From: Neelides folsomi
Lineage: Eukaryota; Arthropoda; Collembola; Neelipleona; Neelidae
Length of the DNA stretch: 64,000 nt
NCBI GenBank assembly: GCA_034687125.1
Contig: JAQGBZ010000052.1
Coordinates: forward strand, 62,001 to 126,000
Reading direction: 5' to 3'
Position 1 is the first letter of the stretch. The number at the start of each line of letters is the position of its first letter. A program made the position numbers and the translations under genes. This document shows, piece after piece, positions 13,799 to 62,731 of the stretch. The notes under the pieces are model-generated. The model was not told where the DNA came from, did not search any database, and was given only the letters and a program-made list of their open reading frames with translations.

Positions 13799-14995
13799 AT
13801 GGAATTGCTGAATAAACTTAAACTTTCGTCTGGAATTTTGAAGTCTCCCCTTTTGTTTAATACCGTTCAAAATAGGTATAATATTTCAATTTAAAAGGTT
13901 TTTGTAAACTGTTTTTGTAGATTATTTTTAGTTTCGTTTCGGAATATGATTATGATTATTTTTAGTTTCGTTTCGGAATATGATTATGATTATTTTAATT
14001 TCTAAGATATTCATATTTGCATTTTATTGAATTATTTTTCTTTTATTTATTACAGAGGGTTCCAATGTAGTGCTGTTCATTATCGCAAACCATGGTCTCA
14101 TTACAAGCACGGGTCAAGGACGACGTACAAAGCCGTCTACCAAAGGCCGATTTACAGACAAAAGGATTTAGAAGCCCTTGAGGAAAATCTTGAAGAAAAG
14201 GAAAAGTTGTCGCATCTTCCCTTCTACCCGCCTTTCCCATGGATGAACGATTCTGTCTGGCACGATCCGCTCATTCACCGATTTTCAAATCATTTCATGT
14301 TAGGAGGAAATCGTGTTATGTCAAAACACATTATGGAAAAGGTCGAAAAAAAATAAATTAGTTCCATAATATTAATAGACTATCTTAAATGCCCAAATAT
14401 TATTGTCAAAAATCGTTAATCTTATATCTCGTAAAATAATTGTTTTATTTATTTTAAAGACTTTTGAATGTATCAAGCGGATACAATTGGCCAAATGGCA
14501 CGAGACGACGGACGAAGTTGAAAGAAGCAAAATAGTTTTGGATCCTCAGGAAGTCTTCCGCATTGCAATTGACAATGTTCGTCCGACTCTTGAAACCATT
14601 ACAGTCAAAAAAGGGGGAGCGAATTATCAAGTTCCAGTGGGAATCGTACCGAACCGAACATATTTCTTAGCTATCAAATATATCAAAGATGCTTGTGCAA
14701 GGGGATCGAAACCACCGGAAGTTAGTTTTTGGACGAAGCTGGCTAGTGAGATTATGGACGCTTATAATAATACAGTGAGTTTTTTTTCTATATTAGAGAT
14801 CCATCCATTCACATTTAAATAAATTAAAACCACGCTTAATTCTTTTATTTACTATTGCCTAAATATTAAATACACTTTTTTACATTTTAACTAATATAAC
14901 CTTTTGATTTACAGGGTAAATGCGTGAAAAGGAAGAATGAATTACACAAGTTATGTGAAGCTAATCGAGCCTACGCACATTTCAGATGGGCATAG
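13799..14995 (+). CDS. MRPS7: Mitochondrial 28S ribosomal protein S7 (uS7m)
   Basis: Small-subunit mitoribosomal protein that nucleates the 3' major domain of 12S rRNA. Four exons in phase: 13799-13875, 14056-14341, 14460-14774, 14915-14995; 252 residues against about 242 in human. The first exon gives a basic, amphipathic N terminus ([15 protein letters not shown]) fitting a mitochondrial presequence; I chose this ATG because its exon ends in phase 2, exactly as the next acceptor needs. Family landmarks: [20 protein letters not shown] (human DPVISKFTNMMMIGGNKVL), [16 protein letters not shown], and the C terminus [21 protein letters not shown]. The second donor is weak (AAG|GTCGAA). Upstream neighbour is the ARL13-like gene on the same strand, about 670 bp away. 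Confidence 0.93.
13921..13988. repeat. 34-bp tandem duplication in MRPS7 intron 1
   Basis: Two identical 34-bp copies, 13921-13954 and 13955-13988, followed by the first 8 bases of a third copy. It lies in the intron and does not touch the acceptor at 14055. Perfect identity suggests a recent slippage event. Confidence 0.9.
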
Positions 14996-16944: not shown

Positions 16945-19640
16945 ATGTCGAGTAGTAAGTAAAGTCAAAGGTCAAACCCCCTACTAACTACCCCTTGTCC
17001 TTTTTTCCAGAAAAAGGGAAGAGCAATAAAGGGAAGACCATGAGTCTCCAGGAGTTTAATGCCCAAATTGAAGATCATGGACAATCTCCAGCTGCTGGGC
17101 AGAATGTCATCTACGCTCCCAAGAAGCCGACCAACATGGGATCATCGTGGGCCGACGAGGTCGAGGAAGAAGGTCCGCATTAAATTACATAATTTTACCC
17201 TTACTCATCCTTACTCCGGCGTCTTACCATTTCCCTCCATTTTTCATTGTTAGAATTGATCACGGAGCGGGAGAGGATTATTTTGCCATCTGCCCCGAGA
17301 GCCTCCCGTGGTCCGGCCATCGATGAGAGGACCATCCCAAGAGAAGGGCCATTCAATGCCCATCTCGGTAATTTGTCATACGATATCGGCGAGGACGACG
17401 TGGCAAAGTTCTTCCGGGATCTTGCCATTGCCGAGATGCGACTTCCTAAGGATGGGCAGACCAACCGGCTGAGGGGATTTGGTTATGTTGAGTTCCGGGA
17501 CCGGGAATCGCTCATCAGCGCCCTTTCCATGAACGAGTCAATGCTGAAGGGAAGACCCGTCCGGATCTCCCTCGGACAACCGGGACAAAACACCGGGTCA
17601 CGGAACGACCACAGACAACCTGACGAGACTCCTGATGATTGGAGATCAGCAATGGATGGACCTATGGCCTCAAGAGGAGGAGGAGGATTCCCACCGTAAG
17701 TAACAAATAATCATTATGAAATTGTAATCATAATTGCAATCATTATAAAACACGTTATAAAATTCTTTATTGCATTATTTAATCTTTATTCTTTAATCTC
17801 TTTATGACAATAGAAGGGACGATGATTTCGGGCGTCAACCAATGGGAAGAAGGCCATATGATGACTACGGTGGTGGTGGTGGTCGGGACCGGGGTGGTGA
17901 TAGATACGGGGAAGATCGTGGTAGGGATAGGGGATTCGGCGGAGGTGGTTTTGGAGGAGATCGGGAGAGGTTCGGAGGAGAGAGAGATCGGTTCGGCGGG
18001 GACCGAGGACGTAGTTTCGGTGGTGGTGGTGGTCCTGAAGAGTCCTTTGATGCGCCATGGAGAGACGAGCGGATGGCGATGTCCCGTCCACAATACCCGC
18101 CCCCTAGAGAAAGAATGCCTGTGAGAGAGAGATACGACGAAGAGCCTCAACGCGAGAGACCCAGAGGACCCCCGCCCAGATCTTCTTCACCCACTCCTTC
18201 AAAAGAGTCTTCTTCGTAAGAATAAATAAATAATTACATAAATTATGTTTTATTCTATATAATTAATTGGTGTTTTAATTGGCAATATAATTAATTGGTG
18301 TTTTAATTGACAATAAAATTAAAAATAACTAAAGATTTAATTAAATGGTTGTTTTTGTAGAAGCGAGCCCCGCGAAAGGAAAAGACTTGTTCTTGCACCA
18401 AGGACAGTGCCAGACCCAGTGGGAGCGAACATTCCTGCAGCGACTTCTTCTATCTTCGGAGGAGCAAAGCCGGTCGACACGGCTGCCAGAGAGAGGGAAA
18501 TTGAAGAGAAACTCGCTACTGGAGCCCAAAATAATCAAATACGTATTCTTCAGCGACCACACGGAGAAAGAGGGGATTCTAATCCAAGAAGAAGGTAAAA
18601 AAACTATTTCAATCAATTTCATAACAATGTTTAAATTAGATTTAGTAAAATATTTAGAAAGTTTATAGACCAATTACACAGAAAGCTCCAGAAAGTTGCA
18701 TTAAAAGTTTTACAATTTAACCAAATTGAAATGTTTGAGTTTTGAATGACTTTTACATTTGAAGTACCTAGTTTAAAAATAATTAATTATCGAATTTCTG
18801 GTTTAAATTAGTAAAACCCCATTCGCCACGCTGGTTTGAAGAATGATTCTTCTTCTGGTGCCAATATTCATTTATTGAAAATGGGGAAATTAATCCGGAA
18901 GGAAGCTATGTAGGAAGCATTTAAACCTTTATTAATGGTTCATAAATGTGCCGAAAACAGACGCTATATTTCATTTTGAATTAATAATTAAATAATTATT
19001 TTAATTGTTAAATCTTATCTTTAATATTAAACTTGATTTAGATTTAGATCATCAATTATATTTTATTAGATGGTTCATAGTTATTTTATCACTTCATAAA
19101 CGAACTTTTGATTTTAGTGAGTCTGAGGGAGATGAATTGCGTGAAGAAACTACAGAGAAAGATAGCCATTCGGAGCCTGAGGATGAGCGAGATGCCCATA
19201 AGTTTGTTGAAGAACGTGAAGAGAATGAGAAGCGAAGCGAAGGACCCAAAGGTGCACGTCGAATTGTCTCACCGAGGAGAAGCGAAGACAGACGAGATGT
19301 CCGTGAACACCCAAACACACGAAGACCGGATCCACGTGATGGGCAAAGAGACCAACGAAGTTCTCGTCCTGTTAAAGTCGCTGGGCCAGGAAAGCCCAAA
19401 GAACCCACACAAGACAAGTGAGAGAGATTCTGTTTATTTATTTATTTAACAAGATGAAATTAATATTTTAGATTTAATTAATTTATATTTTCATGATCCA
19501 ACAGAGACGGCTTCACTGACATTCGCTCCGGCGTTCCTACACGGATCCTCCAAGAGGAAAAGGTCGCGATTGTTCCAGCAAAGAATAAATTTGAGTGTCT
19601 CGTCGGTGATGATGAAAATGTGTCGGAAGTTTCGGATTGA
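16945..19640 (+). CDS. EIF4B: Eukaryotic translation initiation factor 4B
   Basis: RNA-binding cofactor of the eIF4A helicase in cap-dependent initiation, cytoplasmic. Seven exons in phase: 16945-16954, 17011-17172, 17254-17695, 17814-18215, 18361-18594, 19118-19417, 19505-19640; 561 residues. The first coding exon is only 10 nt. N terminus MSSKKGKSNKGKTMSLQEF matches the conserved KKGKT.SL.EF start. RRM at about 92-166 with RNP2 (HLGNLSYD) and RNP1 (RGFGYVEF). Then a Gly/Arg/Asp-rich DRYG-type region encoded by exon 4, the conserved stretch RKRLVLAPRTVP leading to IFGGAKPVDT and EREIEEKL, and an acidic/basic low-complexity tail. The order is that of eIF4B rather than the shorter eIF4H. Two introns contain small tandem duplications or AT runs, nothing that breaks splicing. 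Confidence 0.93.
18258..18313. repeat. 28-bp tandem duplication in EIF4B intron 4
   Basis: Copies at 18258-18285 and 18286-18313 differ at one base. Intronic, between the donor at 18216 and the acceptor at 18360. Confidence 0.85.
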
Positions 19641-27698: not shown

Positions 27699-30600
27699 TT
27701 ATTTGGGAGGTTCTGCCGGTGCAGCTGGTGTAGAAGCTCCAGATGCACTTTGCTTTCGTTCTTTACCCCCTGAGATGCTTTGTGGTTTTTTTCTATCGGC
27801 TGAAGCACTTTGTTTCCGCTCACCCGTTCCATTTGGCTGGGCTGGTTTTGCGACCTGACCCTGATTCGCTTCTCTCTTTAAATGTTTCTTCGATTCAACT
27901 TTCTCCTTTGGTGCTTGTGGGGCTGGTGGAGGTGGCTCGGAAATTCCTTCGATTTTGTGACCAAGTTCAATGAAGTCTTGATCGTCGACAAATTCTTTCG
28001 GGGCATGCCGTTTACTATTTAATAATTTAAATAACTAATTAATATTTTAGTTTATAAGTAAATACAGATAGTTCACATTTGATTGCAAGTTGTATTATGT
28101 GATTAATTTATCGTTTATGAATTAATCTTACACCAAGCATCTAATCGGAATTGACGTTATGATCTGCTGCCAAATTAAAGTTCCAATACCGAATTGGAAA
28201 CACCAGAGCCATTGTTCGATGGTTAAAGGCATTGTCCAAAACACTTTCCCTCCAAATTGGATAATGACGGCCTTAACAAATTGTAATTTGAAATATGAAA
28301 ATTGTTCATAATTCAATTTGGAATGATTTTAATTGGATTGATTTTTTGAAGTATAAACCTGAAGAAGCATCGTAACCACCCAAATGATACAAAAAATGGT
28401 ATTGGTGAAAACACCTTTGAAGATGTTTCTCTGGCCGTGAATCTTTCTTGCGTTCAATTCATTGAACAAAGTCATCATCACGAATGTGTTGAAAATAATT
28501 GTAAAATGGGAAGAAGGCGCGTCAATTTTAATACCGTTGTCAACATCCATCAGCTTATGTCCTTTTAATTAAATTAAATTGAATTGAATTGAATAAATCA
28601 AATTCAAATTAATTAAAATCGATTTAAATGAAATTTTAAACAAAAATATATTAAAATTGATCAAAAATTTCAACCTCTGAACAAAAGCACAAAGATGATT
28701 GTGAGTTGGTAAACTGCTTGGCCCACAATGTTTTTAATCATGGTCGGAGAAAGGAGCGGTTTGGTTCTTCCGTAAGGTTTTCGTTGTAAAAGTTCGTCAG
28801 TCGGCATTTCAGTGGCTAATGCGAGGGATGCCAAAGTGTCCATAATCAAATTAACCCATAACATTTGCATAGCCTATAATGTATAAAGTTGTTCCATTTA
28901 AAAATTTATAACCCAATTAAATAAATTCAAATTAATTAAATAGTTATCAATAAGACAATAAGAAAAGTGATTGTAGCTGCATTAAGGTTTATTATTATTA
29001 TTATTGTTATAAAATTGACCTTCAATGGACTGTTATTGACAATACAAGCTCCAGTAAAAGCTGCGATGACAGCCACAATGTTAACAGTGAGCTGAAATTG
29101 GAGGAACTTTGCAATGCTGTCATAAACATTTCTTCCCCAAAGCACAGCTTTCACAATGCTCGTGAAATTGTCATCAGTGAGGATAATATCAGAGGCTTCT
29201 TTGGCCACATCAGTTCCAGCAATTCCCTAAAAAATTTATTTTAAAAAAATAACTCATTTAAATAAATTTAACAACAAAACTAATTAAAAATATTTTTAAT
29301 TCAAAGATTTAATAAATAAAATCAATTTTTTCTCTGGAGTTTAAAATATATTTAGAGTTCATTTAATTACCATTGAAAATCCCACATCAGCTTTTTTAAG
29401 TGCAGGCCCATCATTTGTTCCATCACCAGTCACAGCCACAACTTCCCGATTCGGGTTCACCGTTGAATCAATAATTCCCTTCACGAGATTATATTTATCA
29501 GTAGGGGAGGATCGAGCCATGACACGCAACTTGGGCCAAACTTCATCAATCAGCTCTTGCTGAACTTCACCATAATCATCACGAATCCTCTCATTGAAGT
29601 CTTTCCCCTCCAAGATCAAAAATCCATCCCCTGGCTTCATAATCCCGCACTTGTATGCAATCGACCGAGCAGTTTCAATATTGTCTCCTGTGACCATCCG
29701 AACTGTGATTCCAGCCCGTTGGCATGTGATGATAGCAGCTGGGACTTCCGGTCGGACGGGATCTTCAATTCCGACAATTCCAATGCAAGTGAGTCCAGAA
29801 ACGATATTGTCTTCTGCGTCCCAATTCGGCTCATTTCCGTCAATGTCTTTATACGCGATTGAAATTGTTCTGAGTCCATCTGCAGCCATTGACTCGATCA
29901 CTTCTTTTACCATTTTGTTTTGCAATTCAGAAGACAGATTTTCCATTTTCCCTTCTTTCCCGTAAATATTTGTGCATCTTGAAAATATTAATTAATTGAG
30001 CAATTAAGTAATTATTTTCTAAACTGACTTTATCAAGGGGTGGAGAGAAGAAAAAACTAATTTTGATATGTTGTTAGTATTATTTAAATATTATAATATT
30101 TTTATTAACATGACTTTATACTTTTTCATGATAATTTCAGAAGCTCCTTTAGTGAAAATCCTCCAACCTCCGGATTTCTTCTTAATAACCGTCGTCATTG
30201 ATTTTCTCACTGAATTGAAAGTGTAAACACGAGCAAAAGATTCTTCTGTATTTGCTTGTCGCTCTTTGGCATAATCCCCTCCGCATGCTTTCACAAAGCC
30301 CAAAAGAGCACATTCTGTTTTATTTCCAACTTGTTGTGGTAATCCCCCAGCTTCATCAGCCTAATCAAATCATGTAACAAAAGAATATTGAATTTATACT
30401 ACTAATATAAAGCAGTTAAATACTAAAAAGATCCATTGAGTGTTTTGTTTTCAAGCTGTTGAAACAAGATTCAAACTTACCACAATTCTGGAAGTGAATG
30501 CAGAATTTAGTGAAATAGCTGGATATAAAATTGATGAAACATTCCCAGGAATGCTCACTCCGCCTTTGTCAATCGTTTTATTGAAATTTCCACAAAGGTA

Positions 30601-32819
30601 ATATTGCACAACCGTCATTCGGTTAGTTGTGAGAGTTCCAGTCTTGTCAGAGCAAATGGCCGTAGCATTTCCCATCGTTTCACAAGCGTCAAGATGTCGA
30701 ACCAAATTATTGTCTTTCATCATTTTCTAATAAAAACCAAAATTTCAATTTTAATAAGATTTATAAATCTCACAGTCTAAAAAAATCTATTAAATTCGAT
30801 CGATTATTTCAATCGAGTAATTCAAATTCAAATGTTAAAAAATATTAAAATTATCAACTTTGACAGAATAGGCGAGAGCGATTGTGACAGCTAATGGAAG
30901 TCCTTCCGGAACAGCAACAACCAAAATGGTGATTCCAGTGATAAAAAAGTAAACAAACCGCTGAAGATGGGCAACTTCGAAATTGTGTTTTGGTTCCATC
31001 CCGTAAGTCTCAATGCTGAACCGAATGCACATGATGATAAATGTAAGCACAGCCGCCACAGTTCCTTTCATTATAAATTGTATATTTATTAAACTACTTA
31101 TTAAATTATGTTAAATTTGTCTTTAACCTTTGCCTTATAAGTAAATTAATTATTAATTAACATTCAAGATAAAATTCTCACCGGCATATCCAATTCGCAT
31201 AGCAAGGATGATGATCTTCGCTTGAAGAACAGACTTTTCGCTTTTTTCCTCTTTCTTATCTTTATTTTTGTCATCCCCGCCAAGATTTTGTCTCAAAGGA
31301 TCGTGAACTTTGTCGTCTTTGTCATCCTCCTCTGTGTCAATGGTCGACATGAGACTTTTCTGCTCTTCTTCATAAGTCAGTGGGATTCCCTTCTTCTTTT
31401 TGGCCTCTACAATTAAGAAATAATCAATTCATTAAAAATTCCAATAATTAGACATTTTAACAAGACTTAAGTTGTACATTTAAATATAATTGGGTATTTA
31501 TAGGTAGTTTATTATTTAACTCACTCTTTTCTTCTTGTTTCCTGTCTTTTTCTCCTCCATCGGTCGCCCCTAAAAGTGAAAAGATGATTCCGGCTTGGGA
31601 GCTCAATCCAACGGCAGCAATCACAGCCTTTCCACTCCCTTCCATGACGTGCGTTCCTGTTCAATTTTTCAGTAATAATTCTTATTTAAAGAAATGTTAA
31701 TTATTGTTTAAAGTTATAGATTGAGAAAGCGTTTATATAAACTTCAAATGCCAAATATAAATACCGGATAAAATCATGGGATTTCCATCTCCCTTTTTCA
31801 CATGATCAGATTCTCCGGTCAACGAGGACTCGTCAACTTTCAAATCGTTACTTTGAATTAAAATTCCATCGGCTGGAATTAAATCACCATATTTGACCTA
31901 AAAATGTTTAAATACTCGCGATCAATATAAATTCAGAGAAGTCATTTTCTCTGAATTTATATACTGAATTTATATTATATTGTCCAAGTATTGAACTTAC
32001 AATTAATATGCAACCAACATTTAAATAATTATTTAAACTATTTTGCTTAAATTCTTAGATTATTTGATAAACATAGAGTTTAACTATTAAACAACATTAA
32101 AAACTTGCAATCACACGGCTAAAATAATAGTTTGAAAAACGTTACTTGAATCACATCCCCAACGACGATATCCGCCACGTGAATTGTAATTGCTTTTCCT
32201 CCTCGGACGACTGCAAAGTTGTGATCTTTCTCAATTCTGCTCTGAAGACTTCTAAACTGCTTCTCCTTTTTGTAATCGTTAATGGAAGTGACTAATACGA
32301 CGAGGACGACGGCGACCATAATGGCCGCGGCTTCAATCCACCCGTCCTCATCTTCCTCTTCCCCGTGACCTCCAACACCTGTGAATCTCCCAATGGCCCA
32401 CAGGATGATCGACACAATGGAAGCAATGATTAAAATAATAAGAGTTCGATCTTGAACGGCTTCCCACACGAGCATTAAAAAAGACTTTGATTCCTTCGGC
32501 GGAATGTAATTTCGACCAAAGGCTTTTCTCCTCCTTGTTAAATCTTCTTCACTTCCATCCAAACCTTTTAATCAATGACAATTAAATTAAACCACCGTTA
32601 AGCAAATTAATTAAATCATTTTAGCTTTACATTAATTTAGCTTGTTTTACTACAAGTTATTTAATTGTAATTAATTAATTAACCATTGATTGGAGAGACT
32701 TTGAGCTTGGTGCAAATGCCTTGTACTCCTCCTTGTTCTTTGACTCTGTCACTTGCTTCTGCTTCTTTCAGCTCCATCATCTCCTTGAGCTCTCCCAAGG
32801 TATACCCGAACTCACTCAT
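27699..32819 (-). CDS. PMCA: Plasma-membrane Ca2+-transporting ATPase (PMCA, P2B)
   Basis: Exports Ca2+ across the plasma membrane. Fourteen coding exons in phase: 32819-32684, 32564-32146, 31897-31765, 31656-31525, 31406-31182, 31064-30859, 30726-30481, 30360-30122, 29977-29371, 29226-29020, 28873-28675, 28561-28359, 28271-28132, 28014-27699; 1135 residues. Motifs: LTGES (actuator), VPEGLPLAV (M4), SDKTGT with phospho-Asp444, [27 protein letters not shown] (hinge), LWVNLIMDT (M6) and [11 protein letters not shown] charged insert ([23 protein letters not shown]) lies in the second cytoplasmic loop, as in other P2B pumps. The acceptor at 32826 just before the ATG marks a spliced 5' UTR whose exon ends at 32937. 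The tail after M10 is short and Pro/Ser/Lys-rich, with two RKQSAS motifs (PKA-like sites) and without the usual RGQILWFRGLNRIQTQ calmodulin-binding segment. Confidence 0.95.
31927..31962. repeat. Perfect hairpin in PMCA intron
   Basis: Arms of at least 13 bases (ATAAATTCAGAGA and its complement) around a short loop, inside the intron between exons 2 and 3. Possibly a small foldback insertion; no effect on splice sites. Confidence 0.7.
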
Positions 32820-34172: not shown

Positions 34173-35347
34173 ATGTCGCAAGTAACTTTGAATTCGCTTA
34201 CTTACGCGTTTGTTTTTGGACTTTGTTTAACCGTAATAAAACATTTTATACATTACTTATATACATAAGATACTAAACTTAAGTAAATTCACCATTAATC
34301 AATTTTAGCAAATAACTATATGTATAGTATAAAAAATATAAGATAGGTAAATAAGTCTGTATAATAATAATTAGTAATAATGTAGATTAGATTAGCTATA
34401 AAGTTTACATCTTTTACTTGTATTTTTGTATGAATTAATTTTTGTTTTGTTTAAGAATTAGTAATTATATAAAAAAGTATAGTCTTCTATAAATGTTTTT
34501 TTCTTCAGATTGTACAATCAGGATGTAACGGGAAACAACAATGTGACGGGGAAGATTTTGTTAAATCTGACGCTCAAATGGAGGCGATGGAGGAATGCTC
34601 CAATGATCTTAAAATTACAGACAAAAAAGAAATGTTTAAACACCCAGTATGGAATAATTATTAAAATGTTCGTTCTACAATTTAATAAAAAATATTAATT
34701 AGCCTTTTTAATTTTTTAGTGTTTCGAATTGTGTAAATTGACCAAACTTGAAGTGGTAAGATTTTCATGCAAATTATCTTTCAAACTCAATTATTCATTT
34801 CCAGACTAAAATTTTCGCTTAAAGTTATATTGTAATATTAAACATGTAATTAAGATCAAAATAAATTTTTTAAGATTTAATATTTTTTCCATAGATTGTT
34901 GAAGGAAAAATCGGAGATGATGGTCTCAATACCATGGCTGAATCATTTCCAGCAAAAAATCAAGAAGCTATCAAACAGATTTTTAAAGATTGTGGAACTA
35001 ATAATCGTAAAATACTTATTTAATCTCATCATATCATTTTAGCATAATTTAAAATATTGCAATACTTTTAGAGCAATGCAATAATGGCTTGTATTTAATA
35101 AGTGTTCATTTAATCAAATAATTTATGGAACCGTTATTAATACTATTCTAGCTGGGCCATACAGCATGGACGATTCTTCTTGCTCTTCTTTCCAGAGCTT
35201 TAGAAAATGCATGTGGGACGGAATCAAGGATGTAAGTTAATCCATTAAACATGAACCAATTATTTATTATTTTATAAAGTGATAACAATGGTTGGTTTAA
35301 AATGGAATTAATTAATGTTTTAGGTCTGCAAATGGAAAAAGCAATAG
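34173..35347 (+). CDS. Odorant-binding-protein-like (PBP/GOBP-type) protein A
   Basis: Predicted secreted helical carrier of small hydrophobic ligands. Six exons in phase: 34173-34232, 34509-34646, 34720-34755, 34895-35006, 35152-35231, 35324-35347; 149 residues. Exon 1 encodes the signal peptide (hydrophobic AFVFGLCLT). The mature part shows the OBP order: MEECSND (C1), CFELC (C2-x3-C3, its own 12-codon exon), KDCGTNN (C4), DSSCSSFQSFRKC (C5-x8-C6). It adds a Cys near the N terminus (QCDGEDF) and one eight residues after C6 (VCKWKK), a possible fourth disulfide. A further Cys (GCNG) is unique to this copy. KIGDDG after C3 is the usual acidic turn of OBPs. First gene of a same-strand array; exon sizes and phases match the paralogues downstream. 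Ligand unknown; chemosensory use is inference. Confidence 0.75.
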
Positions 35348-37251: not shown

Positions 37252-38347
37252 ATGTTAAAAATCTCTTCAACATATTTGGTTTGTTTGGCTTTGACCTTAG
37301 GACTTTTTTTCACCGTAATAAAAATAAGAGAAAATAATTTACAAATTATTTCAAATAAAGATGAATACATTAATAGAGCATCAATTAATAAAATAAAATG
37401 CAAAAAATTTTTTTCACAGGTTGTTGCTTCTGATAAATGTGCCGGAGAAGATTTTCCTGAAGATGCTTCTGACAGTTATATTAAAGCTGAAAATGATTGC
37501 ATCAAAGATCTTGGTATTAAGGAAGATGATAATAGTGAACATCCCGTAAGTCCCAAGCAATTTATGAATGTACCATTGATTGATAGTTATAGTTAGGTAA
37601 TGGTTATGATAATATCTCATTTAAAAATGTGTATGAAATACTTAATTATAATTGTCTAACGGACTAAAATTTACAATGTATTTAAACAGACTTATTTAAA
37701 TATTTGACAGTGTTATTTCACTTGTATAGAACACAAATTGGAAATAGTAAGTAAAATATTTAAATATTGAATTTAATAAAAAGGTTTATAATAAATTAAC
37801 TACAATTTTCACTCAATAGTTCGGAAAAGACGGAAAAGTTAATGCAAAAGCAGTAGAAACCGAGTTGTCATATTTTTTCCCCAAAAAAGTTCAAAAAAGT
37901 TTTATAAAGAGTTTTGTAGATTGTGGGACTAAATGTAAGAGTAAAACCTATTATTTATATTAAATTTTTTGTGTAAGTTAAAATGAAGGATTACAACTAT
38001 TTTTTTGTTAAATTCAATTGTACTTTTATTAAAGATAAATGATATTAAGTGATTTCTTTTTAATGTATTTCAGATCCAGTAATATTCAAAAACAATGATT
38101 GTTCTTCCAGTGAGAATTTTGAAAACTGCTATATCGATAAACTCTATGATGTAATTTGAATATAAAACAAATCTAATAATAAGATTGATATAAAAATTAA
38201 AAATGTAAAATAATGTTTATACATAATCTAAAACGAGTTAATGTTAATGGGTAACATTTATCATAAATGAGAAAATTAAATTAAATCTATGTAATGTTAA
38301 TTTTGCTTTATTATTTTTTTTAGATTTGCAAGTGGAAGAAGGAATAA
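37252..38347 (+). CDS. Odorant-binding-protein-like protein B
   Basis: Second member of the array, the cleanest copy. Six exons in phase: 37252-37314, 37420-37545, 37711-37746, 37820-37934, 38074-38150, 38324-38347; 146 residues. Signal peptide in exon 1 (YLVCLALTLGLFF). Cysteines: KCAGEDF (extra N-terminal), NDCIKDLG (C1), CYFTC (C2-x3-C3), DCGTK (C4), DCSSSENFENC (C5-x8-C6), ICKWKK (extra, eight residues after C6). The segment CIEHKLEIFGKDGKVNAKAV is a typical OBP C3 helix and turn. Exon-1 donor GTAATAAAA is the same as in the other copies. Predicted secreted ligand carrier; ligand unknown. It could instead belong to a related OBP-like family of non-insect arthropods. Confidence 0.78.
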
Positions 38348-39712: not shown

Positions 39713-40750
39713 ATGTCAAAGTTTTTTTCTTTGGCCATTTGCTTTATTTTAGCTTCGGAACTCTTTTCAATTGTAATAAACTAAAAGATAATTTAGGATT
39801 CTAAAAAATAATGCTCATTAATTAAAAATACGATTTTTTATTAGAATGTTGCCTTTGAAGACAAATGCGATGGGGAGGCCTTTCCCCCCAGATCTTCTAA
39901 AAGACTTGACGAAGTTCAAAAAGAATGCGATGAAGAAAACAAAAATCACAAGTTTGACTCAATGGCAAGACTATAAATCAACTTATTATCAAATATTAAA
40001 TTCTTTTAATTATGCCTCAAGATACATTGAGAATTGCATTAATAAATTATTATTTTAATTATTTTACAGTGTGTAAATTCGTGTATATATAGTAAATTAG
40101 GAATAGTAAGCTAATAAATCTTAACTATTAAATCAATTACAATAATATAATAAAAATAATAAAATAATATTAAATTGCTTATTTCAATGAATTCAATGAA
40201 TTATAAATATTATTAATTTTTTGAATATTAAAGTTTGGGACTAATGGAAAAATTAACAGACAAGCTGTGGCCGATGGGTACGGATATCAATTTCCAAATA
40301 AATTCAAAGAAGATCTTATCTATGCATTTGTTGACTGTGGAACTCAATGTAAGACATTTATAATTAATTAAATTAATAATTCAATCTTTAGCAATTCTTA
40401 ATATATTTAAATGAGCAATTACTAAAATAATCATTTTATCTGTTATCTGTTATAAAATATATACCTAAATTAATTTTAACATTAGTTTTGCATTTTTACT
40501 ACAATGTTTAACAAAAATTATTAATTAATTTTCAATATAATTTGCTATAAACCATATTAATTTCAGTTCCAGTCACATTTAATGATGACGAATGCTCTTC
40601 TAATGAAAAATTTAATAACTGTTTCATTATTGAATTAGAAAAGGTATTTTAAAATTTAAAATAAAAATGTGTAAATAAATTTTTACATAATAAAATGTTT
40701 TATAATATTAACAGATTTGTAAATGGCCAAAGAAAAATAGAAGAAATTAA
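39713..40750 (+). CDS. Odorant-binding-protein-like protein C, with a GC-AG intron
   Basis: Third member of the array. Six exons: 39713-39772, 39845-39964, 40070-40105, 40234-40348, 40567-40643, 40715-40750; 147 residues. Signal peptide in exon 1 (SLAICFILASELFS). Cysteines: KCDGEAF, KECDEEN (C1), CVNSC (C2-x3-C3), DCGTQ (C4), ECSSNEKFNNC (C5-x8-C6), ICKWPKK. Exon 2 can only be joined to the next exon in phase by using GCAAGA at 39965 as a 5' splice site (ATG|GCAAGA), a GC-AG intron; the nearest GT would put the CxxxC exon out of frame. The longer open frame at 39846-40058 is in a different phase and ignores these cysteines. If the GC site is not used the gene would be a pseudogene. Confidence 0.68.
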
Positions 40751-42532
40751 CAATGGAGTTCATTGTAATATTAAATGAAATATTATGTTTTGTGTATATT
40801 ATGAATAAAAAATGGGCTGTAATCACTTGTGTACAAAATTGGGCTGATGCTTAAGTTTAAATATTTATGTTTTGCAAAAGATTTCCTTTATGAAATTTTA
40901 CTAATCGGCTCGTTGATGTCTGTACTATTGATGATATAAATTGCAGAGTTCATATATTTTTAAAAAAACTTATTAAAAATCGACCCATGCGGGTCTTTAT
41001 AGCATGGGATTACATAGGGATGGAACATTTAAACCACCTTTAAAAATGTTTTGCAAAACATTTACAATGAATACATTATCGAATTATAAGGGTAAAATAT
41101 TCTATTTTCATATATCCAAATTACAGCTTTCATATATTTTTAGTTTTAAATATAATTAAGCATTTGTTAATATAATTAAGCATAAAAGTCATAAAATACC
41201 CAAATATGAGTGCTTGGTAACATTGTTGTAAACAATGAGCACTTTTCCAATTTTGAAAAATGAAAAATTATTTTTTCATTTTTCAATTCAATCATGCCGC
41301 ATAGTTTTTGGGTCAAAGTCCAGGACGCGGGCCTGTTTCGGGCAATGGTTGCCCTTTTGTTTTAAGCGTATCACCTCATCAAATAAGGTGTTTCGTTTAA
41401 ATCCAAAAGAAATTGGCACACGGAAGGTAGTTTGCATACAATGTTGGACGTTCTTTTCCCTCAAATTGAAGAACTTCTTTTCTCAAGGTGAAAAAGGACA
41501 ACGTTCAGTTTTGAATCAATGACCATTCGGTGAATAAAATTACCATACTTTTAATCATGTTATACCAAAAGTCATTTAAATGAATATTATTGAATAAAAT
41601 AATTAATAATTTTTTATAAACATATAAGGAAAAGTTTGAAAGGCGTAAATCGAAAAAGCGAAAGTGAAGATGCAAAAAAAATGATAAAAGGGCAAAGCAG
41701 CATTTATTAATTGTTGTGAGATACTTTTTAATAAATTATTATCTATGTTAAAATACACATTAAATTAAATATTTCATTCATTTAATTATTAAATATTTAT
41801 AATAGGATGAAAATGTTCAGCGTGTCGATTTCGAGGCTTCTCATGGGCATTTAGGGAAGGAACATTCCGCTTTACTCTTCGCATCTGGGAAAAAAACGTC
41901 AGAACGATGAAGAAAAAGGACCGTTTATCATGATTCAAAGTATGACCGGCGTGCCAAGTGTGAATCTCAAAGTTTGAATTTCCACTGTTTCATTACAAAA
42001 GTCGTGGCTTAAAGTTTTAAACACATACGGGGTATTTTCTACTTATTATTTTACATACATACAAAATATGTACAAATTGTAAAATTATTAACTTAATACA
42101 TATTATCATGCTGTTTAATTTTATATTTTAATCAATTCAGATCAATATTTCTTCTGAATATTTCTTTATAAAGTCTAAGGAAATTGAAGGGAATTTGAGT
42201 GAAAAAGTTGAAAAAATGATGTCGAAATTCAAATCTCAGCATTGCATTAATCTCTACATACTGCGGAAAGTCCAATGCGAATTGCACACTTCCCCATTTC
42301 AATTTGACACTTCAAAACCTTCCACATCAGCGTCGTTTTACAAGCATGAAGCACTGCAAAAGAATTTAATGAATTGTGTGGGAATTCATTCACAATTTAA
42401 ATCAAATTTAGCAAGGTTTTTGATTGATTATAATTAAATTACACATTTTAATTAATAATTAATACTAATGTTTTAAGCTAAAATAATTGACTAACTCTAT
42501 TTTAAAATTCAGTTATTAAATTATTCTTTTAG
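40751..42532. other. Spacer C-D, unassigned reading frames
   Basis: Two plus-strand frames, 41235-41522 (95 residues, no family) and 42195-42437 (80 residues, several Cys/His, no family recognised). The second lies directly before the transposase relic and could be an exon of the same element or of a lost host gene. The 41.8-42.0 kb part is less AT-rich but not open. This is where the front exons of OBP-like remnant D should have been; I could not find them. Confidence 0.4.
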
Positions 42533-43359
42533 ATCGAAGATTATGAAGAATCTACGGATGAAGAGGATTCTTTGGAATTTGACAATGAGGGTATAGGATT
42601 TGAGAATGATGATGACGAAGAGGAATTAAGCCAAAGCTACCAATCACAGGAAACTCAAGATCCAAACACAATTTTCCTTGAAATGAATGCCTGTGTCAAA
42701 ACCGAATCTCATTGCTTCTTATGTAAAAAGAATGGAAGATGGAGAGTCCCCAAAGAGGCGATTTTACAAACTTGGAATCATCGCCGAATTTATATTCATC
42801 CCAACAACAGAATTTGTCGTGAACATCTCGCTGTAGATAAAAAGTTCGAGGAGGATTCTCAACAAAAGATTCATTCAATAAAAGAAAAAATAAAACTCTC
42901 AGCACAAGAAATTCATTTGTTTGTTGTCGGGCAATCAGAAGAATGAAGATTCCAAAGGTCCTTTCGATTTCAACGAAAATAGCAATTTGAACTCTGACGA
43001 TTATTTTTCCTTGACTGGAAGTGATGAATAAATGCACTGAATTTGAGAATTGGAGACGATTAAACGACATCAATCTTCTTGACCGAGGTTTCCGAGACTC
43101 AATTCAAACGGCGGAAAAGCATGGTTTGACTATTTTTATGCCTTCACTTCTTAAGAAAGGACAAACCCAATTTACTACTCAAGAGGCGAATTACTCAAGG
43201 AAAGTCACAATGGCCCGGCATGTGGTGGAATTCAGTAATGCTCGTCTTAAAAAGTGGGGACTTTTAAATTCTGTAATTGAATTGCCTTATGTTAAAAAGC
43301 GAATTATAAAAATTCGCTCATTAATTGAAAAGAATTTGGGTGCCATTTTGGAAAAGTAA
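42533..43359 (+). pseudogene. Decayed DDE-superfamily transposase with internal deletion
   Basis: N-terminal part (42533-42946): acidic segment, then a zinc-binding motif CFLCKKNGRWRVPKE followed by NNRICREHL, as found at the start of a class of DDE_Tnp_4-like transposases. After a frameshift near 42930 the reading continues (NEDSKGPFDFNENSN, then DDYFSLTG). The C-terminal part (43021-43359) has LLDRGFRDSIQTAEKHGL, PSLLKKGQTQFTTQEAN, SRKVTMARHVVEFSNARLKK, the last catalytic segment of that family. The central region with the first catalytic Asp residues is missing between LTG and DRGFRD. Dead element; I identified no terminal repeats. Confidence 0.65.
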
Positions 43360-43630: not shown

Positions 43631-44040
43631 AACATGTATGAGTTCAGTGAGATCCAAATAAATTTAGAAAACGTTAGTTCTTCCTATCCTTATGCATTTA
43701 TAGATTGTAAAAGTGAATGTAAGGTTTTTTTTTATTCAAAAGTACTAATTGCATTAGTAAAAAAATTGATTAACTAATTAAGTATTTTTTTACTTAATTA
43801 GTTAGAAAAAACGCCTTCCAAGTGTCTATCTTACGATAAGTTTAAATCCTGTTATTTTAAATTAATATATAAGGTAAGTCTAAATCAAAAATCAAATGTT
43901 TTGAGTTTTAAGTACAAATATAATTAAAATGCAGAATGCATTTTCAATATTAACTTATCAAATAATAAATTCCATATTCGAATAAAAAATACAATTATAA
44001 TATTAGATTTTACATGCAGATTTGTAAATGGGAAACGTGA
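43631..44040 (+). pseudogene. OBP-like gene remnant D (exons 4-6 only)
   Basis: Remnant of an array member. Exon-4 end: YPYAFIDCKSE up to the donor at 43718, matching AFVDCGNE / AFIDCKTE in the two-domain gene. Exon 5: 43806-43873, PSKCLSYDKFKSC (C5-x8-C6). Exon 6: 44020-44040, ICKWET then stop. Exons 1-3 and the front of exon 4 are missing; the DDE transposase relic ends about 270 bp upstream. In the only phase-correct junction, T|AA, an in-frame stop forms. Not functional as an OBP. Confidence 0.65.
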
Positions 44041-44908: not shown

Positions 44909-47900
44909 ATGGCATATTTTTCTTCAATTTCTTTTCTAAATTTACTTTTGGTTCTGAAACTAATTTTTATTGTAATAAAACAATCTGTTTTATTCAAATT
45001 TAATTTATTCTAACATAAGTACATATTTACAAAAAAATAATTTCGAAATCTTTAAAATATTTTATGCAGAATTTTTCAGTAGAAGGTTCCATGCCCAATT
45101 TATGTAAAGGAGAAGAATTTCCTAAAGATTTACCTGAAAATTATGTCAGAGCTTATAAAGAATGCACTAATGAATATTCGGGAGTAGAACAAAGTGAAAA
45201 TGTTATTAAACGGGTAAAAACAAAGATGTCTAAAATCACAAAACTTTGAACAATATTTTAAAACTTATTTTTTGGAACAATAAATGATATGCAATATACA
45301 GGATAGCCCTTAAGTAACGCAAAATCAATAAAATGATTCTATAGGAAAAATTGATAAAATAACAATTTACGATTGATTGAAAATTTTGCGTTACTTAAGG
45401 GCTACCCTGTACATTGGACCTCGGTTAAGATCAGCCCTCGGATAAGATCAACTTTTTCTGTGTTCCCGGCATAGATATAGGAACTGTAATGCTTTAAACC
45501 TCGGATAGTGTCACCTCGGATAATGTCAACTTTGGCTAAGATCATCAAAATTTTTGTTCCCGTGGAACGTCAACTACTCATAAGATCAACTTTTAGTCTC
45601 TACGAATTTAAAATATTGTTTGACTTTATAAATTTGAGGTGAAATAAATTGAGAAACAGTTAATGTTCACACAAGTAAACATAATGGAGTGATTTCAGTG
45701 CCCTAAAACATAATATAGAATATCACCAAAATTGGAAAATAGCTATTTTGGTTTAGATTACTTCTCGTTCCATGATTCGGGTATAGCATTCGACATATTT
45801 TTTATCAAATAACCTAATATTGGTATACATACTTTTAATTCAATCGGTATGTTATTTTATTATATAATAAATTTGCATTGATATAAATATGTACATGTGT
45901 AATTACATGAGTTATATCAACTTCGGTGTCAACTTAGGTTAAGATCACCAAAATTGATGTATCTCTTGAAGTTAATCTTATCCGAGGTCCAGTGTATTAT
46001 AATAAAATATTCTTTAATTTGGATTGTGGTTTTGTCTAATTTAATGCTAAAAATTAATGTAAAATCATTATTTTCCAGTGTGTAAAAGCGTGCATATTTA
46101 TTAAATTAGGAATTGTAAGTAAATCAAAATTTACGTTTTGCTAAATTTTAAAGGATTAAATACAATTCTGGCAAATTACCATTAACAATTTTAAAACATT
46201 TACATATAATAGTATGGAAATGACGGGAAGGTGAACGAGACAGCTGTGGCGATTGATATTTCTCCTGCAATGTATCCGGAAAAGTTTCAAGAAAGCTTTA
46301 ACAAGGCATTTGTAGATTGTGGAAATGAATGTAAGCAATCAATATTTTTACTCGTTCTAAATAATTCAATAATATAACCCAATTAAAATTTTGATATAAC
46401 AAACAGTTTTACCTCTACATTAGTTACTTATACTCTATTCGCTCCGAATAAAATCCCCGAATCGAAAGTGGCCTCCTAAATATTTCCACCGTTACCTATT
46501 AAACTAAATGTTAATCTTAATTGTAGTAAATCAAAAATAAATGATTCACATTTGTTAATTTTTAAATTTCAAAGCTTTTCTTATTGGTAATTGATTGATA
46601 TTTATTTATTTTAATGTTTTCGCTTTTTACGACTGGGGTTTACCAATACCAATCAATTATGAATAAGAAAAGCTTTATTAATACTTGAAAAAGTAATGAG
46701 AAAATTGAAAATTGGCAAATGTTAATCATTTATCTTTTATTTATTACAATTATTGATAACATTTAGTCTAATTGGTAACGGTGGAAATATTTAGGCGCCA
46801 ATTTCGGTTAGGGGATTTTATTCGAAGCGAATAGAGATAAGTGTTAGATTGGCATTTAAATTTCAAATTAACCTATACTCTTTTGAAATTACAGACCCAT
46901 TCTCCTTAAATGACAAACGATGTAGTTCTGTCATCGAATTTAACGAATGTTTTTTTAAAGAAATGCTTAAAGTAGGTGAAAATGGCAAATTAAGTGAAAA
47001 AATTACAATATAAGTATTATAACCATTATTTTTAAATTATTTTAACTTAAACTTAACTAGTAATATTTATTTTATTACTTTAAATTTTTTATAGTAATTA
47101 AAATATTATTTACTCATTTAGTATTACTTTTATCTACAATATTAATTTGAAAATCATGTGTATTTACACCATTGTCTTATATCTATTACTTCTTTGATAT
47201 TGATTATTCATTTTTGTAAATCATTTATATTTTTTTTAGATTTGTAATTGGAAAATTACAAAAAGTGTCACATTGATATACAAAAATGTAATAAAAAAAT
47301 TACTAAGCTATAATTTAAACAAATTTTATATTAGCAGTATATATATTTTAAAAATATATTTGGGAAAAAAATAATTATTTTCATAGGATTTAAAAAAATG
47401 TGACGGAGAGACTTGGCCCCCAATTCCAGAATCTCATATTAAAGCAATGAACAAATGTGTAAAAACCCTTGGTTTAAAAGAACTAAGCGAACTGTCAACA
47501 AATAAGGTATACAATTTAAAAACTCAGTAACATGAAAATTTTGAATAAAATGTTTATTTAATTGTCATTATCTATTAAACCATAACTATATTCTTATAAC
47601 TTTATTGTTAGTGTCTCGAACCGTGCAAATATCTCGTTTTAGGAATTGTAAGTTGAAATTAGAAAATATAACAATTAACCATTATTTTAAAGTTTTAAAA
47701 GACATAAATTCTATGAAACAAATTAAATAAAATTTAACGATGATGATTAAGACATCAAAAAACGGAGAAATGAATACAACAGCTGCAGCAATTGAAATGA
47801 AACCATATTATCCAGAAAAATTACAAGAAAGTTTAACAAAGGCATTTATCGACTGTAAAACTGAATGTAAGCACTTTAAATTTATTTTTGGTTAATTGAA

Positions 47901-48198
47901 ATCGAATTAACATGATTCATTCGTTGTTGCAATGCAGGGGTAGGATAAAGGTTTATTTCCCATTTTTATTTCAGGGCCAGAAAAAACGCATACAAATTGC
48001 GAAACTTACAATGATTTTTATTCTTGTTATATAAAAGGATATATTTGTGTAAGTAAAAAACCAAGTGTGAAATACAAATAAATATGCTTATGACGGAAAT
48101 ACGTATTTTATTAATTTAAAATTAACAAAAAATACTCAAGTATTATAATATTTTCAAAATGTTTTCTTTTACATATTTAGATTTGCAAATGGGATTAA
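44909..48198 (+). CDS. Probable two-domain OBP-like protein (E-F fusion)
   Basis: Eleven exons in phase: 44909-44971, 45070-45213, 46079-46114, 46213-46330, 46895-46971, 47240-47287, 47387-47506, 47612-47647, 47752-47866, 47975-48048, 48181-48198; 282 residues. One signal peptide (FLNLLLVLKLIFI), then two complete OBP-like units. Unit E: LCKGEEF, KECTNEY, CVKAC, DCGNE, RCSSVIEFNEC, ICNWK. Unit F: KCDGETW, NKCVKTLG, CLEPC, DCKTE, NCETYNDFYSC, ICKWD. Unit E has lost the stop codon after its CNW motif, and unit F has no signal-peptide exon. A phase-0 GTAATA donor at 47288 and acceptor at 47386 join them through a 99-bp intron. Alternative: E alone with a 44-residue C-terminal exon running to 47374 and F a headless pseudogene. 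Introns 2 and 4 contain MITEs. Confidence 0.62.
45299..45409. mobile_element. 111-bp mariner-type MITE in intron 2
   Basis: Ends CAGGATAGCCCTTAAGTAAC and, inverted, CAGGGTAGCCCTTAAGTAAC; arms match for about 28 bases with one or two differences. Flanked by TA at 45297-45298 and 45410-45411. No coding capacity. Confidence 0.85.
45412..45994. mobile_element. 583-bp Tc1/mariner/pogo-type MITE in intron 2
   Basis: Left end CATTGGACCTCGGTTAAGAT and inverted right end CACTGGACCTCGGATAAGAT, flanked by TA (45410-45411 and 45995-45996). Subterminal repeats of the type TCGGATAA-ATCAAC occur several times inside both ends. No transposase. It shares its left TA with the 111-bp MITE beside it. Confidence 0.85.
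46433..46836. mobile_element. 404-bp foldback MITE in intron 4
   Basis: About 63-bp imperfect terminal inverted repeats (46433-46496 and 46774-46836) beginning CTCTATTCGC and ending GCGAATAGAG, with inner inverted copies (AAAGCTTTTCTTAT and its complement), so most of the element folds back on itself. Flanked by ATA on both sides. No coding capacity; superfamily not certain. Confidence 0.8.
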
Positions 48199-55399: not shown

Positions 55400-57635
55400 A
55401 TGAGCGGGAGTTGGCTGTTTTTTCGGCTCCCGCCGTTGTTCCTCCTTTTCATCATCGTGAACGGAAATCCTTTCGCCGATATTAAGGTTTTTTAATCATA
55501 TAATATATATCATCATTTAAACTTAATTAGATAGATGTTGCAATTTGTATTAAAATTGTATTTGCAATTTGTATTTTATGTTAATTCATTATTGATTAAA
55601 TTGAAATTGAACATAACAAAAGTTGATTGTTTATTAGGGAGATTTTTGCCGTCGAAGAATCGGTGGATGTTGTCCAGGAAGAATTGACGAATGTTCTGTT
55701 CCCATTCTTGGAACTTTATGTTATTGTGATGGGTTTTGTAATCGAACGGAGAATCCCGACTGCTGTCCGGATTACAATGCATTTTGCCTTGGCCATGAAC
55801 CAATTGAACTTGACCCACCAGAAAACTTGAAAAGTAAACTGACAACTTTATTAATAACATTTATTTCAATGGATGTCTAAATAAAATATCCTTCAATAAT
55901 AATTTAATAATGCTTAAATGAAAATAACTTTACAATTCTTTAAAATTAAGGTTGTTCCAAAGACGGAAGGAATTATGAAATAGGCTCCAAATTAAAAATT
56001 AATTGCAATGAATGGTAAGTTTCAACATGTTGACCTGAATTATAATTGCGAATTATTTTTATTTCATGAATTATTTAGTAAATGTGAAATGGCTGGAAGT
56101 CCAATAAAAGCTGAGTTTTTATGCGAAACTGAACCCTGCCTCTTGGATGAATCCTCCATCGAGGAAATTAACAACGGGAAGTTTTACTGGACAGCCGGGA
56201 ATCACAGCGACTTCTGGGGCAAAACGCTGGCCAAGGGAATTCTCATGAAGTTGGGGACTCTCGAGCCTGAGCGTGCAGTTCGGCGAATGGAGCCAATCAA
56301 AGCTGTTTATGATCCAACGTTAATTCCGAGAGCTTTCGACGCTCGGACCAAATGGCCAACTTTGATCTCCCGTGTAAGAGATCAAGAATGGTGTGGAGCG
56401 GATTGGGCCATCACAACTGCTGCGGTTATTCAAGATCGACTCGCAATTCAATCTGGTGGATCGGAAATTGTCTCTTTGGCACCTCAACAAATCCTTGCCT
56501 GCAATAACCGTGGACAGCAAGGTATGCAATTACCTAAATCCATCAGATAAATTCCATTAATTTACGAAAAACTTATGGCTTATTTATATTTAAATCCATT
56601 TAATAATTATTTCTAATAAGATTTTTCGATTTTAATTAAAGGATGCAAAGGAGGGCATTTGGACAGAAGTTGGAACTTTATGAGGAGATTTGGGTATTTA
56701 AAATAACTTCAAATTCGCCATTAATAAGTATTAAATTTAGTTAAATTTAAAAGTATTTGAGATTTTGTAAAACCACAGTTATCGTCTTGATTTTGGAGTT
56801 TTTATGACTTTATGATGATCAAATTCTTTTTATTATTTTAGAGTGGTTCCTGAAACTTGTTATCCTTATACGGGAACAGATGAAAGTCCTTGCAGAATCA
56901 GCCGAAACACCAAACGTTTATCCGATATCCCAACTTGTGAAGCTGGGAATTCCATTAATGTTCGGAGTGAATTATATCGGAGCGGACCGCCTTATCGGGT
57001 TGGAACAAAAGAGACAGATATTCAACATGAAATAATGAATTTTGGACCAGTTCAAGTGAGTTAAATTAAATTAGCTAAGGACCTATAATTTTTATTCAGA
57101 TATTACATAATTTAACTTTATTAATTTAATTAAAATGAATTTGATTGATAATATAGCTAAAATAATTTTTGTCTTCTTATTAGGCCACTCTTTCAATTTC
57201 TGCTGACTTCTTTTCTTATAAGAACGGGATTTATAAACGGAGCGGGCTCCGTGTGGGTCAACGCACTGGTTGGCATTCGGTTAGAATTATTGGATGGGGC
57301 GAGGAGTTTTTACAAGGATCAAATGTCAAATATTGGGTATGATCAATTTTGAACACTTTTAATTAATTTATTAATTTTAGTTAATTTGAGAGCATTTTCA
57401 TAGTCTTAAAGACAATTTTGTTAAGTCGATTAATTAACATTGGTTGTATAAATGATTGATGAAATTTATATTTACAAATTAGATTGCAAGCAATTCATGG
57501 GGAGTTGATTGGGGAGAAGAAGGTCATTTTCGGATTCTTCGTGGTGTGAATGAATGCGAGGTTGAGTCGTTCGTGGTGGCCGCTTGGGCTCGTCCAGACG
57601 CCCATTCTCGTCCTCGTACGCCGTTCTCTCAATAG
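55400..57635 (+). CDS. TINAGL: Tubulointerstitial nephritis antigen-like, inactive cathepsin-fold protein
   Basis: Secreted matrix-type protein. Eight exons in phase: 55400-55486, 55638-55833, 55951-56014, 56079-56521, 56642-56693, 56842-57055, 57184-57336, 57483-57635; 453 residues. Signal peptide (LPPLFLLFIIVNG); somatomedin-B-like Cys-rich domain (CRRRIGGCC, CYCDGFCNRT, DCCPDY; about 31-82); a short Cys-rich segment (GCSKDGRNY, INCNECKC); then a papain-like C1A domain from about 200 to the end. The catalytic Cys is replaced: DQEWCGADWA puts Asp224 where papain has Cys25 and where TINAG proteins usually have Ser. The His (GWHSVRIIGWGE) and Asn (IASNSWGVDWGEEG) positions remain. So it is predicted to have no protease activity. 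The acceptor touches the ATG (TTCAG|ATG), so a 5' UTR exon must lie upstream. Confidence 0.92.
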
Positions 57636-59368: not shown

Positions 59369-61826
<2,458 letters not shown>

Positions 61827-62731
61827 AAAGTTTGAATTTCATTAAAATATAATAACTTCACTAGTATTAAAAACTTAATGTCCCTTGTATCCTTGTATCC
61901 AATCCATCCCATTTCCATCATTTAAATAATTTTTTATTACATCCTTCGTTGACCCTTTATAATTTACCAAAATCTGTGTGTTTGTAAACATTTTAAGTGG
62001 CTAAATAGTTTAAACAGTGTCGACTTTCAAAATCGTGTACCTCACATCTGTCAATTTTACAAGAAGTGTAAATGTCTTATAAAATCTCCATTAAAAGTTT
62101 TATAAAATTCAGATTTTAATATTTTTATTGCATCAATATTTCCCAATACCTTATTATAGTATACATTTATCATAAAAACAAAATAATTGACTAACAGATT
62201 AATTAAATAAATAGTAATTGTATTAATATTTAATTTATATTTAATCAATTGTTTATAACAAATTTAAATTGTCCCTATATTATTAATTTCCATCTAAAAA
62301 TATGATTCATATAAGTGTATCATTATTCACATCGTGCGTCGTTAGAACTGACATTGAGAACTGATCATTAATTAAAAATACGTATTTTCGATTTGCGCTC
62401 TTTAATGCCCCATTTATCCAAATGATTCTATTCAAATCCCAAATATTGCTAATACAATATTCCAAAGTTGTTGAATGACTTTGGAATGTAATTGAGCTTA
62501 CTACCATTAGAGTTTGAGCATTACAATTTGTATTTGGATGTGTTGCGTATGCGAGGTGAGTCATAGTGGCTCGAGATAGCGAGTGAGTGCGGAGAAGTGC
62601 GCTTGTACACGGAGCAGAAGGTGTCGTCAGACTCGCACGAACGTCTCTTCATTCTTCTTCGACCAGGTCGACGATCATCAGGAAGATTTTCGTCCTCGCC
62701 CTTCACCTCTGTACCCCTGTCATGTCCTGAG
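61827..62731. other. Spacer RUVBL1 - ILRUN with GC-richer ILRUN leader
   Basis: First 700 bp AT-rich. From about 62520 the GC content rises through the probable ILRUN promoter and 5' UTR. An open frame continues upstream of the ILRUN ATG from 62597, but the family start (MEEDMEV before QQFSCLGTTDKD) argues for translation from 62732. Confidence 0.5.

Follow-up and report, generated by a model that had tools for sequence, protein, structure and literature searches.

Loss of a stop codon and of an intact signal-peptide exon may have joined two tandem odorant-binding protein genes in the collembolan Neelides folsomi

A tandem array of odorant-binding protein (OBP) genes occupies 34.2 to 48.2 kb on the + strand of the window, by which we mean the whole analysed stretch of 64,000 nucleotides (C52:62001-126000; 68% AT) from the 75-Mb, 840-contig assembly of Neelides folsomi. 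Each of the units A, B, C and E is built of six exons with intron phases 0,0,0,1,0, exon 1 coding for the signal peptide as judged by hydrophobicity, and exon 2 of unit C would need a GC donor. Unit F has exons 2-6 only, with phases that match those of A, B, C and E. The modelled introns of the cluster measure 71-865 bp, the intergenic spacers 1904 bp (A-B) and 1365 bp (B-C), and 135 bp lie between the CNW of E and exon 2 of F. The units other than E and F are the following.

Unit A, 34173..35347, + strand, complete single-domain gene, for comparison
Unit B, 37252..38347, + strand, complete single-domain gene, for comparison
Unit C, 39713..40750, + strand, complete single-domain gene, for comparison
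Unit D, 43667..44040, + strand, remnant, recognisable only by parts of its exons 4, 5 and 6

Ahead of the D remnant, at about 41.8-43.4 kb, broken open frames have by eye the look of mobile elements, and for the 124-aa ORF at 42572 a Pfam search at E 0.01 gave no match. Elsewhere in the window the following genes or open reading frames were recognised.

ORF at 12246, Arf-like protein
ORF at 14403, ribosomal protein S7/S5e
ORF at 17247, RRM protein
ORF at 29359, - strand, HAD hydrolase
ORF at 32122, - strand, cation-ATPase N-terminus
ORF at 56008, papain-type protease
60060-61823, TIP49/RuvB-like helicase gene, in several pieces
ORF at 62597, UBA-like and N_BRCA1_IG protein

Assignment to the OBP family was based on the Pfam profile PF01395 (PBP_GOBP; cut-off 22 bits), above which E (32.9 bits), F (29.2) and B (24.3) scored, with C under the cut-off at 20.3 bits and A without a match. 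In addition, a profile made from five cluster units and one unlinked paralogue matched 29 distinct PDB sequences at E up to 0.01, most of them named odorant- or pheromone-binding proteins, with 6jpm as the top match (1.2e-8). On other contigs we have identified the following related sequences.

C67, about 68900-69770, - strand, unlinked single-domain paralogue with the same eight cysteines, exons 3 and 4 merged
C413, about 40020-40950, - strand, unlinked single-domain paralogue ending in VCA, exons by eye only
C486, 25233-25448, + strand, PBP_GOBP match of 27.8 bits with a proline-/threonine-rich stretch ahead of the OBP part

On another contig (C448, 46754-46873) TTAGG repeats run up to the contig end, which we take to suggest an ordinary insect telomere and to speak against a dipteran.

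Insect OBPs are distinguished by six canonical cysteines with the spacing CxxxC between C2 and C3 and C-x8-C between C5 and C6. These six, with the expected spacing, are shared without exception by A, B, C, E, F and the C67 paralogue, as are two further cysteines, one in a CxGE motif near the start and one in C[KN] near the end, and F retains all eight. Plus-C OBPs, as the cited source describes them, have additional cysteines immediately following C4 and C6, and C6 is also followed by a conserved proline (PMC12495806). In the present family one extra invariant cysteine precedes C1 and the other follows C6 at a distance of 9 positions, and the six aligned paralogues have no conserved proline beyond C6. 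The extra cysteine pair of the E-F locus is common to the single-domain paralogues and unlike the Plus-C layout.

The exons of the E-F locus are listed below as they would be used in a joint transcript.

E exon 1, 44909..44971, + strand, start codon and signal peptide MAYFSSISFLNLLLVLKLIFI, donor ATT followed by GTAATAAAAC
E exon 2, 45070..45213, + strand, both ends phase 0
E exon 3, 46079..46114, + strand, 36 nt, carries the CxxxC pair
E exon 4, 46213..46330, + strand, phase 1 at its end
E exon 5, 46895..46971, + strand
E exon 6 as in the predicted fusion, 47240..47287, + strand, ICNW and a 12-codon linker KITKSVTLIYKN, phase-0 donor AAT followed by GTAATAAAAA
Putative joining intron, 47288..47386, + strand, 99 bp, begins with GTAATAAA
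F exon 2, 47387..47506, + strand, the second OBP domain begins here
F exon 3, 47612..47647, + strand
F exon 4, 47752..47866, + strand, acceptor score 1.8, the lowest of 25
F exon 5, 47975..48048, + strand, one added cysteine ahead of the splice
F exon 6, 48181..48198, + strand, ICKWD, then stop

Introns 2 and 4 of E contain apparent short mobile-element insertions, at 45281-45987 with inverted-repeat arms of 45 and 19 nt, and at 46433-46836 with arms of 32, 40 and 120 nt. Were intron 5 of E retained, translation would end at a TAA at 47011-47013 with the last cysteine missing. The acceptor of E exon 6 scores 13.1 on the splice matrix and the donor at 47288 scores 8.1, and the exon 4 acceptors score 10.4 in A, 4.4-6.6 in B, C and E and 1.8 in F; all these values merely rank the sites, because the matrices derive from these same sites.

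The initial annotation had claimed that the last exon of E reads through where the other copies stop, and this is borne out. The exon starts at 47240 after ttttttttag, and its ICNW is followed by 40 codons, 44 in all, up to a TAA at 47372-47374, whereas the stops of A, B, C, D and F lie 1-7 codons past CKW. In these units the protein ends with CKWKKQ (A), CKWKKE (B), CKWPKKNRRN (C, stop codon 40748-40750), CKWET (D) and CKWD (F), and the unlinked single-domain relatives end with ACKTMR (C67) and VCA (C413, exons read by eye).

At the start of F, an in-frame TAG (47384) lies just upstream of exon 2, and the sole in-frame ATG of that exon is internal, past the first cysteine. We have scanned for an ATG followed by a hydrophobic stretch and a phase-0 GT within 14-31 codons, which listed 11 candidates across 33-49 kb; four of these were the known signal exons of units A, B, C and E. 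None fell between 44972 and 47386, where chance alone would give 0.98 per 2.4 kb on the + strand and 1.47 on the - strand. In agreement with what had been proposed for the 130 bp ahead of F, no intact signal-peptide exon was found for F in this interval. A look-alike within intron 5 of E (ATG 47156, 20 codons, MCIYTIVLYLLLL followed by stop, Y, stop and LFIF), considered as a decayed signal exon of F, has two in-frame TGA codons and a donor score of 3.7. It was set aside because the 8-mer at 47288 is the better homologue of the exon-1 donors, and because hydrophobic frames come easily in AT-rich DNA.

It had also been proposed that a phase-0 donor (AAT followed by GTAATA, 47288) and the phase-0 acceptor of F exon 2 (47386) join the two units by an intron of 99 bp, and both sites, their phase and the intron length were confirmed. 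With the predicted junction 47287/47387, the spliced frame has 282 codons and a single stop, which is terminal. The predicted 282-aa product would consist of one signal peptide, an E domain with 8 cysteines, the linker and an F domain with 9 cysteines; contingent on that junction, two complete OBP domains lie in one spliced frame.

The first bases of the joining intron suggest where its donor came from. GTAATAAA occurs five times on the + strand of 33-49 kb, namely at 34233, 37315, 39773 and 44972, which are the signal-exon (exon-1) donors of A, B, C and E, respectively, and at 47288, and it is absent from all other 20 modelled donors. Elsewhere in the window there are six copies on the + strand, outside 33-49 kb, and four on the - strand. 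The 8-mer has T, not G, at +5 and is identical in the four intact units despite their diverged exons; it seems to be specific to the cluster, because the unlinked paralogues have GTAAGT (C67) and GTAAGA (C413) as exon-1 donors. When 47252-47386 was shuffled 20,000 times with dinucleotide composition kept, an in-phase copy ahead of the stop arose in 0.29% of cases, and among 62,510 overlapping windows of the real sequence (135 bp, + strand, the surroundings of the five sites excluded) 102 had one (0.16%). These values are not blind odds, since the 8-mer was chosen after being seen. Any in-phase GTAA, GTGA or GTAT ahead of the stop was found in 11% of the same shuffles and 16% of the same real windows, and the in-frame route by itself is therefore modest evidence. 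Since the 8-mer in phase at 47288 is the one that A, B, C and E have at their exon-1 donors, the site is most likely the exon-1 donor of F, and the joining intron is probably the old intron 1 of F. The initial annotation had explained the fusion by a lost stop and a lost signal exon. The lost stop of E, the want of an intact signal exon in F and the in-frame route from E to F all stand, but exon 1 of F is seemingly not wholly gone, the link between both genes being probably its retained donor together with intron 1.

The body of the joining intron adds little to this, since its likeness to intron 1 of E appears weak and not specific. Its length (99 bp) is close to that of E intron 1 (98 bp), but in a comparison of 22 introns (two of more than 300 bp left out) E intron 1 gave a shuffled core z of 1.34 and intron 3 of A a higher one, 1.85. 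In alignments with the joining intron, 2.0% of 2,241 local windows did at least as well as E intron 1, the share being 1.5% for B intron 1 and 30% for C intron 1.

Taking the arrangement as a whole, we consider it somewhat probable that E and F form one gene for a secreted two-domain OBP, made by deletion and capture of the exon-1 donor of F. One or a few deletions would have taken the E-F spacer, the promoter of F and exon 1 of F except its donor end, and the stop of E would have been lost along with the spacer, the promoter and the start and hydrophobic core of F. The last exon of E would thereby use the exon-1 donor of F, so that both genes would be spliced together from the E promoter, and the signal peptide of E would export a covalent OBP dimer in which 18 residues separate the last E cysteine from the first F cysteine.

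The 36 nt ahead of the donor at 47288 bear on where the breakpoint would lie. They show no likeness to any exon 1 (p 0.51-0.91 in four tests), which would place the breakpoint at or very near the donor, or else give the 8-mer another origin. The idea that this 36-nt linker is the end of F exon 1 was dropped as unsupported by the same four tests. Compared with 3′ flanks, the 36 nt match that of B weakly (p 0.042, best of five, the C flank being taken from 40740, 10 bases ahead of the real stop of C), and a former 3′ UTR of E may be named as a weak alternative source. As to upstream motifs, TATAAAATAGA is found upstream of the starts of A and E, and in favour of the fusion TATAAAA is absent from the + strand between 44726 and 48030. 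Against it, TATAAATA lies at 45882 within intron 2 of E, and a run of the TATATATA type lies 50 bp upstream of F exon 2.

Perhaps F is instead a 5′-truncated relic, left by a deletion of its promoter and signal exon, with E either gaining a 40-residue tail up to the TAA at 47372-47374 or ending in retained intron 5 at 47011-47013. The missing start and intact signal exon of F would suit such a relic, as would the weak acceptor of its exon 4 and the presence in the cluster of unit D, which is already decayed. Moreover, against each of A, B, C and C67 the dN of F exceeds that of E (4/4 comparisons, margin 0.05-0.17), and this would agree with relaxed constraint. The ratio dN/dS (0.74 for E-F) decides nothing because synonymous sites are near or at saturation, with dS from 0.80 upward and infinite in one pair, in a run in which unit C ended one codon short of its last ones. 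The relic would also be favoured by the AATAAA at 47290, which is part of GTAATAAA, and the 8-mer might represent an old poly(A) signal of E, preceded by GT through chance, AATAAA having a density here of about 0.4 per 100 bp. Yet polyadenylation soon past 47290 would precede any stop and leave an E mRNA without a stop codon. The 363 coding nt of F run without a frame break, free of stops, frameshifts and losses of conserved cysteines, and the agreement of frame and phase from E to F would have to be put down to a chance outcome of 11-16%. On balance we regard a relic F as rather unlikely.

The same donor-capture deletion might have left a locus with several products, all from the E promoter and one signal peptide: the E-F dimer, and F alone if exons 2-6 of E are skipped. 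This is an unlikely elaboration in our estimate; if true, such a multi-product locus would be an early, still legible stage of the domain-fusion path that other insects took long ago. We see distinctly less prospect for a first exon that is merely shared through alternative splicing, in which E exon 1 (44971) has E exon 2 and F exon 2 (47387) as alternative splice partners and two single-domain proteins result. The junction 44971/47387 is phase 0 and is predicted to yield a well-formed secreted OBP of 141 aa, but it requires a 2.4-kb intron past five exons, where the modelled introns have 71-865 bp, and sharing alone does not explain the absent stop of E. Least probable of all is an error of assembly, or else a deletion confined to the individual that was sequenced. 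In its favour, a single assembly stands behind the locus and tandem paralogues readily collapse. Against it, the junction preserves frame, phase and donor, no direct repeat of at least 18 nt spans it, the reported E/F copies, 75-77% alike, are situated elsewhere, and a DNA search with 47200-47520 against the 75-Mb assembly found the self match alone and hence no second haplotype.

The preferred reading, one E-F gene for a two-domain protein, places the locus in known company, as double-domain OBPs are already described from flies, mosquitoes and a wasp and the E-F locus fits that kind. In Nasonia vitripennis, NvitOBP38-46 and 48 are double-domain OBPs, a set of ten made up of nine two-domain genes and OBP43, in which most of one domain is lost (PMC3428353). 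According to the cited parts of that study, its authors favour fusion of physically close paralogues over internal duplication and cite ESTs across adjacent OBP genes, although a PCR test of their own yielded no such transcript (PMC3428353). For Drosophila, duplication or fusion of linked OBP genes was proposed for the dimer OBPs Obp83cd and Obp83ef, each component of which was placed in the minus-C group (PMC2258175), and both domains of the Drosophila dimer OBPs have been called complete (PMC3428353). Thus, as presented in these sources, both duplication and fusion are named as possible origins of the Drosophila and Nasonia cases (PMC2258175, PMC3428353). In mosquitoes, the atypical, two-domain AaegOBP45 accumulates in ovaries and was proposed as an eggshell component (PMC3892079).

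Like AaegOBP45, the predicted E-F protein unites two classic-OBP-like domains, and like Obp83cd and Obp83ef these are consecutive, although the former is from mosquitoes and the latter are established Drosophila genes. The resemblance to Nasonia, as far as the cited sections describe it, extends to tandem OBP domains of near-equal gene structure save for the signal peptide, within an OBP cluster. In that description one Nasonia domain is short of many canonical cysteines, whereas both domains of the E-F locus have the canonical cysteines; Nasonia has a family of ten genes with ESTs over both domains, whereas the E-F locus is a single gene seen, known from DNA alone. What is unusual here is that an apparently parental exon arrangement and the putative joining donor are still readable. 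One can still make out the single-domain neighbours, the loss of the E stop and of an intact signal exon for F, and the probable leftover donor, and the proposed route of deletion and donor capture is thus directly testable. In this the E-F locus differs from the double-domain OBPs of Nasonia, as described in the cited sections, in that its donors can still be read.
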